DNA of 64,000 nt. Origin: Sphingomonas jaspsi DSM 18422. Its GTDB lineage: Bacteria > Pseudomonadota > Alphaproteobacteria > Sphingomonadales > Sphingomonadaceae. Below the pieces are notes generated by a model. That model saw nothing but the letters and a program-made list of their open reading frames with translations, ran no database searches and was not told the DNA's origin. Below are positions 9,315-21,971 of the stretch, piece by piece. The position numbers were made by a program, and so were the translations under genes. The stretch spans positions 12,810 to 76,809 of the forward strand of contig NZ_KK073876.1 in NCBI RefSeq assembly GCF_000585415.1. Reading direction: 5' to 3'. Position 1 is the stretch's first letter. Every line of letters begins with the position of its first letter.

Positions 9315-10361
9315 ATGCATTTTCTGGATCAGGCCAAGATTTTCATCCGTTCGGGTGCCGGCGGCCCCGGCGCGGTGAGTTTCCGCCGTGAAAAATATAT
9401 CGAATATGGCGGGCCCGACGGCGGCGACGGCGGCAAGGGCGCGGACATCATTTTCGAGGCCGTCCCCGGCCTCAACACGCTCATCGACTTTCGCTACACC
9501 CAGCATTTCCGCGCCCCGCGCGGCAAGGGCGGGTCGGGCAGCAACATGACCGGGGCGGGCGGCAAGGACCTTGTCATCAAGGTCCCGGTCGGCACGCAGA
9601 TCCTCGCCGACGACGAGGACCGCACCCTCCTCGCCGACCTCACCGAAGTCGGCCAGCGCATCGTCTTTCTGAAGGGCGGCGACGGCGGCAAGGGCAACGC
9701 CAGCTTCAAAAGTTCGACCAACCGCGCCCCGCGCAAGCACGGCCCGGGCTGGCCGGGCGAGGAAATGTATGTCTGGCTGCGGCTGAAACTGCTCGCCGAC
9801 GTCGGGCTTGTCGGGCTGCCCAACGCGGGCAAATCGACCTTCATCAACGCCGTCAGCAACGCCAAGGCCAAGGTCGGCGCTTACGCCTTCACCACGCTAC
9901 GGCCCCAGCTGGGAGTCGTCAGCCATCGCGGCCGCGAATTCGTCGTCGCCGACATTCCCGGCCTGATCGAAGGCGCGGCGGAAGGTGCCGGCATCGGCGA
10001 CCGCTTCCTCGGTCATATCGAACGCTGCCAGGTGCTGCTCCACCTCGTCGACGCCAATGACGAGGATGTGGCGACCAGCTACGACATCGTTCGCGGCGAA
10101 CTCGACGCTTATGGCGCGGGCCTCGCCGACAAGCCGGTCGTGCTGGCGCTTAACAAGATCGACACGATGGACGACGAGCTGGTCGCCGCGCTGTCGAAGG
10201 AACTGGAAGACGCCAGCGGCCTGCCGGTCCTGGCGATCAGCGCGGCGGGCGAGATCGGCATCGAACCGGTGCTCGACGCGCTGATGGACAAGCTCCAGTC
10301 CCGCGATCACAGCGAGCCCGATCATATCGACGAGGACGAAAAGCCCTGGTCGCCGCTCTGA
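9315..10361 (+). CDS. obgE: GTPase Obg/CgtA
   Basis: 348 aa. The Obg domain comes first ([34 protein letters not shown]). The G domain follows: G1 [10 protein letters not shown]3 [15 protein letters not shown]4 NKID, G5 region ISAAGEIG. An essential ribosome-assembly/stress GTPase. The C-terminus is short and acidic ([13 protein letters not shown]), without the Firmicute OCT domain. It sits downstream of the ribosomal protein genes as in many bacteria, though here separated by three genes. The stop overlaps the apparent CTG start of the next gene. Confidence 0.97.
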
Positions 10362-11263
10362 CCATCGCGGTCACCGGCGCGACGGGCTTTGTCGGGCAGC
10401 GACTGCTCGATGCGGCCGTCGCATCGGGACATCACGTCCGCGCCCTCACCCGTCGCCCGCAAGCCGAGCGCGATGGCGTCACCTGGATCGAAGGCGCGCT
10501 CGACAGCACCGAGGCACTGCGCAAGCTGTGCGACGGCGCCGACGCCGTCATCCACGTCGCGGGCGTGATCAACGCGCCCGACGCGGCTGGGTTCGAGGCG
10601 GGCAACGTCACCGGCACGCTCGCCATGCTCGCTGCCGCGACCGCCAGCGGAGTGCACCGCTTCGTTCATGTCAGCTCGCTCGCCGCGCGAGAACCGTCGC
10701 TCTCGCACTACGGCGCGTCCAAGGCGCGCTCGGAGGAGCTGGTCGAAGGGTCGGGCCTCGACTGGGCCATCGTCCGCCCGCCCGCCGTCTATGGCCCGGG
10801 CGACAAGGAAACGCTGGAGCTATTCAAGATGGCGAGCGGCGGCGTGCTGATGATGCCGCCGGCCGGTCGTGCTTCCTATATCCATGTCGACGACCTCGCC
10901 CGCCTGCTCCTCGCGCTGGCCCGGCCGGATGCGCCCAAGGGCCTGACGATCGAACCCGATGACGGCCGCCCCGGCGGCTGGCGCCATGCCGATTTCGGCG
11001 CCGCGCTTGGCGCCGCGCTTGGCCGCAAAGTCCGCGTCCTTCATATGCCACGATGGATGCTGAAGGTCGGCGCCTGGGGAGACCGCCTCGCCAGGCGCGG
11101 CAACGCCAAGCTGACCCCCGATCGCGTCGCCTACTTCTGCCATCCCGACTGGTCGGTCGACCCGGCCCGCGCCGCGCCCGCGGACCTGTGGCGGCCTCAG
11201 GTCGTTACCGCCCAGGGCCTCGCCGATACCGCGCGCTGGTATCGCGACCACGATTGGCTCTAA
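10358..11263 (+). CDS. NAD(P)-dependent epimerase/reductase, candidate ceramide-pathway CerR
   Basis: 301 aa if read from CTG at 10358. The Rossmann motif [14 protein letters not shown] is at residues 7-20, followed by [10 protein letters not shown] and the HYGASK catalytic YxxxK. No ATG, GTG or TTG exists in this frame upstream of the motif; the first canonical start (GTG 10565) would delete the nucleotide-binding site. The CTG overlaps the obgE stop as CTGA, so re-initiation by coupling is plausible. It lies upstream of acpR-spt. From memory, Caulobacter has a comparable extended-SDR reductase (CerR) beside the same two genes, acting on the 3-keto group of the sphingoid/ceramide product. 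That role is inferred from context. Confidence 0.82.
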
Positions 11264-11324
11264 CCCGCCTTTCTTGCGCCCGATTTCGTTGCGAAAGGCC
11301 CATGGACACCATAAGGCGAACAAC

Positions 11325-20686: not shown

Positions 20687-20831
20687 GTCTTTTTCAATTT
20701 CCGAGCCCGCGGATGCCGCGAGATAGTGGCACCATCATGGCGATTCCAGAGCGAAGGTGGATTGACCGGCGTCAAGCGGCCTCTCCAACATCGCCGTGAC
20801 ATGGCGCGTTTGAGCGTATAGCCAAGCGCGC

Positions 20832-21971
20832 ATGAACAGCGCCCTTACCGTCCGTCCAGTGGCCAGCAAGGCCGACCTGAAGGCCTTCGTCGACTTCGCT
20901 TGGGAGGTCTACAAGAACGATCCCGCCTGGATCCCGCCGCTGAAGGACGAGGTCTACGGCCTGCTCACCCCGGGCAAGAACCCTTGGTTCGAACATGGCC
21001 ACGCCGCCTATTTTCTCGCGGAGCGCGACGGCAAGGTCGTCGGCCGCATCAGCGCGCAGGTTGACCAGCTGGTGCAGGAGCATATGGGCCAGGGCATCGG
21101 CCAATGGGGCATGTTCGAGGCGCTGGATGAAGAGGTCGCCCACGCCCTCATCGCCAAGGCGGAAGACTGGCTTCGCGGCGAGGGCATGACCACCGCCATG
21201 GGCCCCTTCTCGATCGGCATCTGGGACGAGCCGGGCCTGCTCATCACCGGCCATTCGCAGCCGCCGATCGTCATGATGGGCCATCACCTTGCCGCCTATG
21301 AAGGCTGGGTGGAGCGCGCCGGCTATGCCAAGGTGAAGGACCTGCTGACGTTCGAACTCGACATCCGCATCGACATGATCCCGATGATCGACCGGCTGAT
21401 CAAGGCGGGCGAAAAGAACCCGCGCATCGTCATCCGCGACGTCGACAAGTCGAAGTTCGATGCTGAAGCCGCGATCATCCTCGATATCCTCAACGACGCC
21501 TGGTCGGACAATTGGGGCTATATCCCGCTCACCGACAGTGAAATCGCCTATGCCGGCAAGAAGCTGAAGCCGATCATCGTCGAGGATTTGGTCAAGATTG
21601 CCGAAGTGGATGGCGAGCCGGTCGCCTTCATGCTGACCATCCCCGACTTGAACGAGATGATCGCCGATCTGAACGGCAGCCTGTTCCCGTTCGGCTGGGC
21701 CAAGCTGCTGTGGCGCCTGCACAAGGTGTCGACCCGCCGCGTCCGCGTGCCGTTGATGGGCGTGCGCAAGAAGATGCAGGGCGGCCGCCTCGCCAGCCAG
21801 CTGGCCTTCATGATGATCGAATTCACCCGCCGCGTCTGCGTCGAAAAATACGACGTCTATTTCGGCGAATTCGGCTGGGTGCTGGAAGACAACCAGGGCA
21901 TGATGTCGATCGCCCAGCTACCGGGGGCGCATGCCAATCATACGTATCGGATTTACGAAAAAGCACTCTGA
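20832..21971 (+). CDS. GNAT-fold acyltransferase resembling bacterial ceramide synthase (bCerS)
   Basis: 379 aa, much longer than ordinary GNATs. It begins LTVRPVASKADLKAFVDFAW, followed by NDPAWIPPLKDEVYGLLTPG, GPFSIGIWDEPGLLITG, a GNAT-like core with EPVAFMLTIPDLNEMIADLN, and FGEFGWVLEDNQGMMSIAQL near the end. No signal peptide. From memory, the Caulobacter N-acyltransferase that makes ceramide (bCerS) belongs to the GNAT superfamily, has about this length and sits in the spt neighbourhood. The lipid context here supports the same role. Without alignment this is a strong candidate, not a proof. Confidence 0.7.
   Translation: MNSALTVRPVASKADLKAFVDFAWEVYKNDPAWIPPLKDEVYGLLTPGKNPWFEHGHAAYFLAERDGKVVGRISAQVDQLVQEHMGQGIGQWGMFEALDEEVAHALIAKAEDWLRGEGMTTAMGPFSIGIWDEPGLLITGHSQPPIVMMGHHLAAYEGWVERAGYAKVKDLLTFELDIRIDMIPMIDRLIKAGEKNPRIVIRDVDKSKFDAEAAIILDILNDAWSDNWGYIPLTDSEIAYAGKKLKPIIVEDLVKIAEVDGEPVAFMLTIPDLNEMIADLNGSLFPFGWAKLLWRLHKVSTRRVRVPLMGVRKKMQGGRLASQLAFMMIEFTRRVCVEKYDVYFGEFGWVLEDNQGMMSIAQLPGAHANHTYRIYEKAL

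Follow-up and report, generated by a model that had tools for sequence, protein, structure and literature searches.

The closest described system to the locus considered here is the sphingolipid region of Caulobacter crescentus (CC_1152-CC_1168, with LptC2, LptF2 and LptG2). According to the account given in PMC11324152, Lpt-like transport of phosphosphingolipids and a nucleoside diphosphate (NDP)-activated ceramide have already been proposed for this bacterium. Another reference is LptB2FG of Escherichia coli, the exporter of lipopolysaccharide (LPS). Related to this, a passage of PMC11087976, from one group, describes flippases and lipid transporters for bacterial sphingolipids as not yet identified, and a passage of PMC11324152, from another, calls sphingolipid transport to the outer membrane not known.

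The DNA analysed here (the window) is a stretch of 64,000 nucleotides, bases 12810-76809 of the one-contig genome of Sphingomonas jaspsi DSM 18422 (2.55 Mb; 99.99% complete). At positions 10358-21971 it carries the same kinds of gene as the Caulobacter region: cerR, acpR, spt (serine palmitoyltransferase), a lipid kinase, a gene resembling cytidine diphosphate-diacylglycerol (CDP-DAG) synthase (CC_1161 in Caulobacter), lptF2G2 and cerS. Every gene named in an initial annotation of the window was located there by the list of open reading frames and by profile searches, and a hybrid histidine kinase gene lying inside the region had been omitted from it. Caulobacter keeps LpxC, whereas in the window genome LpxC was not found and the sphingolipid-type pair is the only LptFG pair; furthermore, nothing like CpgA, CC_1158 or CpgD came out of a Pfam profile search of the region's genes, unlike in Caulobacter. 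It is very probable, judging from the sequence comparisons described below, that the region is an old alphaproteobacterial block for sphingolipid synthesis and export whose LptFG belongs to a separate, sphingolipid-type lineage (LptF2G2) and is not the LPS-type pair. Beyond the Caulobacter proposals, lineage-wide evidence, an empty gene slot and a fold match to Tam41 are added here. Among the literature matches listed for Sphingomonas or Sphingomonadales with Lpt or lpx, PMC11324152 was the only directly relevant one; none of those listed for CDP-ceramide in bacteria dealt with it, and PMC11324152, in the part concerned, has NDP-activated ceramide in other words.

Two lineages of LptFG

The distribution of the genes was surveyed in 118 genomes of the window's order (seven families, completeness of at least 95%) and in 143 genomes of the class (Spt threshold E 1e-110). 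In the order, Spt was found in 117 genomes at E 1e-120, LptD in 118, LptC in 100 at E 1e-3 and LptF/LptG in 116, with exactly two genes in 103 and more than two in 13. LpxC, the sole lipid A gene searched, was found in none of the 118. In the class, Spt was found in 23 genomes and LpxC in 121, which indicates that the LpxC search works.

The window pair consists of lptF (17229-18437, forward strand, GTG start) and lptG (18434-19531, forward strand), overlapping by 4 bases. With 198 and 241 bits, respectively, against PF03739 (curated cut-off 27.9), both are LptF/LptG permeases; LptG reaches 276.6 bits with TIGR04408 (cut-off 240) and LptF 224.8 bits with TIGR04407, slightly below the cut-off of 230. 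Pairs were typed by trees built from the concatenated LptF-LptG sequences, with 56 pairs in the first and 55 pairs plus E. coli in the second. The loci with incomplete pairs (L012, L013, L015, L029 and L045) and G152, whose pair is not adjacent, stand outside the tree, and the long-branched G131 C2 (L040) is also left out of the second one. In the careful run the tree splits into clade A (21 pairs) and clade B (34 pairs), each with support of 100/100. All 13 LPS-only pairs fall in clade A, together with a single pair from each of seven genomes with both LPS and sphingolipid genes and one pair of G131. Clade B is made up of 14 main pairs of the order, all 11 pairs from class genomes with Spt and no LpxC found, four spt-linked pairs, three unlinked pairs (G134, G186 and G236) that adjoin kinase, nucleotidyltransferase (NTase) or CerS genes, and two extra pairs of the order. 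The window pair falls in clade B (100/100), not in the LPS-type clade A, and groups with the spt-linked second pairs of LPS- and sphingolipid-bearing genomes, which marks it as LptF2G2-like. By profile, L029, L045 and the other, truncated pair of G134 are type A and L015 is type B.

Both types coexist in seven of the eight genomes that carry LPS and sphingolipid genes, and the eighth, G173, has clade A only; among the 15 class genomes with Spt and no LpxC found, 14 have clade B only and G164 has no pair. At least four LptFG genes were counted in 7/8 genomes with Spt and LpxC vs 1/113 with LpxC and no Spt (Fisher p 1e-9, kinship ignored), this lone genome being G131.

The LPS-type pair has a characteristic place. 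Of the 24 clade A loci, 18 have LptD adjoining LptFG, 21 have PepA and 20 have KsgA (22 clade A loci are listed in the neighbourhood count, L162 being scored separately). The typical order is ndk-holC-pepA followed by the divergent lptF-lptG-lptD-surA-pdxA-ksgA, and a few loci have insertions between pepA and lptF. The window genome shows the same flanks, named by Pfam, but lptD comes directly after pepA with no lptFG between them, and a PF03739 search of the genome found the window pair as the only LptFG. On a plain reading, the LPS-type pair would have been lost from the pepA/lptD slot and the sphingolipid-type pair kept. LptA, LptC and LptD are present. Elsewhere in the genome lptC and lptA lie in one row, with a 3'-5' exonuclease gene ahead of them and, immediately behind lptA, a gene for an LptB-like ABC_tran protein, to which the sigma-54 gene is next; the ABC_tran protein is named LptB by its place.

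The window genome thus has in common with E. coli LptB2FG the PF03739 family of LptF and LptG, as well as LptA, LptC, LptD and an LptB-like ABC protein. On the other hand, its pair lies in a separate clade, LpxC was not found, and the positions matching K40 and K41 of LptG, which in E. coli are reported to touch the 4'-phosphate and inner core of LPS (PMC6744409), are mostly non-basic in clade B (R or K in 1/34 and 5/34 proteins, vs 19/21 at each position in clade A). A clade B LptFG in a genome where LpxC was not found and the ordinary slot is empty, from a bacterium apparently without LPS synthesis, points to an LPS exporter that would be working on a different lipid.

Conservation of the block

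Linkage between spt and LptFG was measured with the best listed LptFG match of each genome of the order; 7 of the 118 fell outside this count for want of a listed match. The two lie within 12 kb of each other in 75 of the 111 testable genomes, that is, in 41/42 of the other families and in 34/69 of the window's family. Loci were also fetched with the NTase family, as the best 80 of at least 590 relatives, and include Dongia, Kordiimonas, Azospirillum, Sphingobium, Sphingomonas and Sphingosinicella; Caulobacter is not among these best 80. CerR, AcpR, Spt, NTase, kinase, LptF, LptG and CerS occur together in 42 of the 80; of the 51 loci measuring 20 kb or more, 35 have the full set. Where Spt, NTase, LptF and LptG are all found (52 loci), Spt and Lpt lie on one strand and NTase on the opposite one in 46. 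Loci of distant families mostly keep order and strands: CerR-AcpR-Spt, the opposed NTase-kinase-(DUF2141), and LptF-LptG-CerS. LptF is not nearby in 8 of the 51 long loci, 7 of which are Sphingobium records.

The block turns up repeatedly in alphaproteobacterial families, for the most part with a single gene order, so that the clustering goes beyond chance, and the conserved gene order that the initial annotation had called for is found. This differs from the picture of 'scattered' genes that PMC11324152 draws where it treats S. wittichii and Z. mobilis, although roughly half of the genomes in the window's family do show scattering. The central guess of that annotation, LptFG as a pump for sphingolipid, is well supported by the comparison.

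Some clusters were seen outside the class. Two Nitrospirales metagenome-assembled genomes, of another phylum (L121 and L138), have CerS, LptF, LptG, kinase and NTase together, and a gammaproteobacterial one from Ectothiorhodospiraceae (L089) has kinase, NTase, LptFG and Spt together; such modules may travel together with an LptFG of their own. Away from the main blocks, further genes of this kind occur in L022 (G047), L024 (G066), L015 (G002) and L040 (G131): additional pairs of clade B, lone LptF-like genes next to DUF2141 or, in G131, a very divergent pair close to an Spt-like protein.

Alternative explanations

Several observations weigh against a sphingolipid-dedicated LptFG. LptC was not found in 18 of the 118 genomes of the order at E 1e-3, and spt and LptFG are more than 12 kb apart in 35 of 69 genomes of the window's family (15 of them on different contigs). 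Among genomes with Spt, G164 (no LpxC found) is without any LptFG match and G173 (with LpxC) holds clade A only. G161 and G217, with neither Spt nor LpxC found, carry LptFG that resisted typing, and G158, likewise with neither found (95% complete), holds type A. The second pair of G131, negative for Spt at the threshold, is very divergent, lies outside both clades and is 4.7 kb from an Spt-like protein. The extra clade B pairs L022 and L024 have no cluster genes around them, the Nitrospirales and gammaproteobacterial LptFG are type B by profile with small margins and outside the tree, and the A/B typing covers a minority of the genomes without NTase. The correspondence between the window and Caulobacter rests on position and family, the Caulobacter proteins (CC_1156/CC_1155 for the LptFG pair) standing outside the trees. 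Finally, the window LptG keeps one basic contact position (K46), the residue matching K34 is acidic in clade A and clade B alike, and PMC5548808 reports no effect of K40E/K41E on E. coli growth, so that the contrast at K40/K41 gives weak and mixed support.

That LptFG is an ordinary LPS-type pair, retained after the loss of LPS and re-used amid an incidental sphingolipid neighbourhood, would agree with the window pair being the genome's only one and with the other Lpt components lying elsewhere in ordinary places. Such an origin is nevertheless highly improbable: the pair stands in clade B apart from every LPS-only pair of the tree, the LPS-type slot is empty and 7/8 genomes with LPS and sphingolipid carry both types. 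It is contradicted at the level of sequence unless the split is an artefact of composition or long branches, for which some tree rows gave warnings; the split persisted once the longest row had been taken out. It is also very unlikely that the bridge carries another lipid-linked polymer instead of sphingolipid. A passage of PMC10353723 reports a transport system that connects the inner with the outer membrane in LPS-less Borrelia, but the presence and the location of clade B follow those of Spt, and clade B occurs in sphingolipid clusters of distant taxa. As for lipid A made by enzymes unlike LpxC, with Lpt serving it, the point in favour is that LpxC was the only lipid A gene searched; the same search was positive in 121/143 class genomes and Sphingomonas koreensis is counted among LPS-lacking bacteria where PMC11324152 lists them, so hardly any weight can be given to this idea.

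Somewhat less improbable, though still unlikely, is a pump restricted to the phosphorylated ceramide branch (a CPG-type lipid), glycosphingolipid being surfaced otherwise. Clade B is usually accompanied by the kinase (27/31 counted loci) and the NTase (26/31), these counts leaving out L022 and L024, which have no cluster genes. Moreover, the two Spt-positive exceptions without clade B, G164 (L157) and G173 (L156), have ceramide genes and no NTase, with neither kinase near spt nor clade B LptFG nearby. However, within the window's family 22 of the 70 genomes gave no match to the NTase, G072 and G116 of its genus among them, and all 22 keep LptFG (G042, one of them, keeps the kinase, which was not searched genome-wide). 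Phosphorylated ceramide would therefore not be an obligate cargo. In this respect the initial annotation, which proposed one pathway from serine to a phosphorylated ceramide-derived lipid, stands in part: the kinds of gene, the Tam41 fold and the LptFG lineage fit it, whereas phosphorylated ceramide as the obligate cargo does not.

With regard to history, the balance leans towards an order that inherited a duplicated, sphingolipid-dedicated LptFG and in which lipid A and the LPS-type pair subsequently disappeared. Its complete Lpt bridge would today serve sphingolipid only, and the block would have its own CDP-ceramide route. If true, an Lpt bridge can change its cargo. With one LptFG pair placed inside sphingolipid genes and LpxC not found, the transport question becomes directly testable by a single depletion without LPS background. 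In addition, a comparison of clade A and clade B transporters of one genome would be a natural means of finding out what determines lipid specificity, a matter relevant to antibiotics directed at LptB2FG.

Genes of the block and proposed route

Next to obgE lies the cerR-like short-chain dehydrogenase/reductase (SDR) gene (10358-11263, forward; Epimerase/NAD_binding_10), in the same place as in relatives' syntenic clusters and a candidate reductase of 3-ketosphinganine or oxidised ceramide. It has no ATG, GTG or TTG start ahead of residue 70; the likely start is the CTG at 10358, overlapping the obgE stop, and a TTG occurs at roughly the same point in relative L108. The SDR of 12 relatives starts shortly ahead of the Rossmann motif, and inspection by eye showed no signal peptide in them, which is at odds with the periplasmic location that PMC11087976 reports, where it deals with it, for CerR of Caulobacter. 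The acyl carrier protein gene acpR (11325-11570, forward; PP-binding 1.3e-7) ends one base before spt (11572-12774, forward), whose product passed the alphaproteobacterial model NF047603 with 814 bits (cut-off 670). Such tight spacing, seen also at lptF-lptG and at DUF2141-kinase, resembles that of operons. The hybrid histidine kinase (12821-14812, forward; HATPase, receiver and a weak CHASE3 match) has similar proteins in 20/80 fetched loci, many placed between spt and NTase, and is a possible regulator of the sphingolipid genes.

On the reverse strand, the NTase (about 14769-15632), counterpart of CpgC/CC_1161 by position, is proposed as a CTP:ceramide-1-phosphate cytidylyltransferase. Fold comparison matched it to Tam41 CDP-DAG synthase (PDB 7ecd, 6ig4 and 6ig2) at 14% identity. 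It has no Pfam match, including none to PF09139 at E 1e-3, and is therefore called Tam41-like, not Tam41; PF09139 was matched by one of 25 family members (9.4e-7), absent from the 10 rescanned. Sequence and profile searches of the family against PDB sequences returned no Tam41, but other proteins at E 0.047 to 1.3. It is 60-70% identical to the NTases of Sphingomonas, Sphingomicrobium and Sphingobium loci. Unlike Tam41 it adjoins a lipid kinase in a sphingolipid cluster, and so its substrate is probably ceramide-1-phosphate; the fold would support CDP-ceramide formation. The mechanism of the CpgC step is called unidentified in the parts of PMC12275187 and PMC13228409 that mention it, and the Tam41 fold of a CpgC-like protein offers a concrete test for it.

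The kinase (15643-16629, reverse; DAGK_cat 3.1e-12) adjoins the NTase in relatives. Like the ceramide kinase CpgB (PMC10331486) it lies beside a CpgC-like gene and near spt; its status as counterpart rests on family and gene place, ceramide kinase activity being predicted. The DUF2141 gene (16617-17105, reverse; PF09912 6.8e-18) overlaps it by 13 bases and occurs in 47/80 loci, mostly adjoining the kinase, with two invariant cysteines. An N-terminal signal-like stretch was seen by eye, and the AlphaFold2 model (pLDDT 89) is beta-rich with no PDB match at E 0.001; this protein is perhaps part of the export path. Downstream of lptG lie an FA_desaturase gene of desaturase/hydroxylase type (19583-20686, reverse; PF00487 7.7e-28) and the GNAT-fold gene (20832-21971, forward; PF00583 2.7e-5). 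Desaturase-like proteins occur in 14/80 loci, and a PF04116 FA_hydroxylase near CerS in two other clusters. By this match and its place, the GNAT gene is a candidate for the bacterial ceramide synthase bCerS, a GNAT-type acyltransferase that adds the second acyl chain; CerS is present in 27/31 counted clade B loci.

We infer enzymatic activities, cargo and direction of transport as follows. AcpR, Spt, CerR and the GNAT protein would form (dihydro)ceramide, whose amide-linked acyl chain is probably hydroxylated by the desaturase-type enzyme. The kinase would probably yield ceramide-1-phosphate, from which the Tam41-like enzyme would probably make CDP-ceramide as the precursor of a phospho-head group. 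Since the kinase needs ATP and the cytidylyltransferase CTP, these steps are most likely cytosolic, and a flip across the inner membrane would consequently be needed. No flippase was identified among the genes of the region, the rest of the genome not having been searched for one. By family, clade B LptB2FG would pick up the lipid on the periplasmic side of that membrane, and LptC-LptA would then conduct it to LptD.

In three loci a protein of 507-523 amino acids is encoded between LptG and CerS (L016:10391-11911, L005:10603-12171 and L048:6402-7970). It has a multi-span membrane look by eye, the L016 protein, the one scanned, had no Pfam match, and it is a candidate flippase. Separately, serC-like and serA-like genes were seen by eye in the list of open reading frames at 24977-27675, 3 kb downstream of the block, serine being the substrate of Spt.

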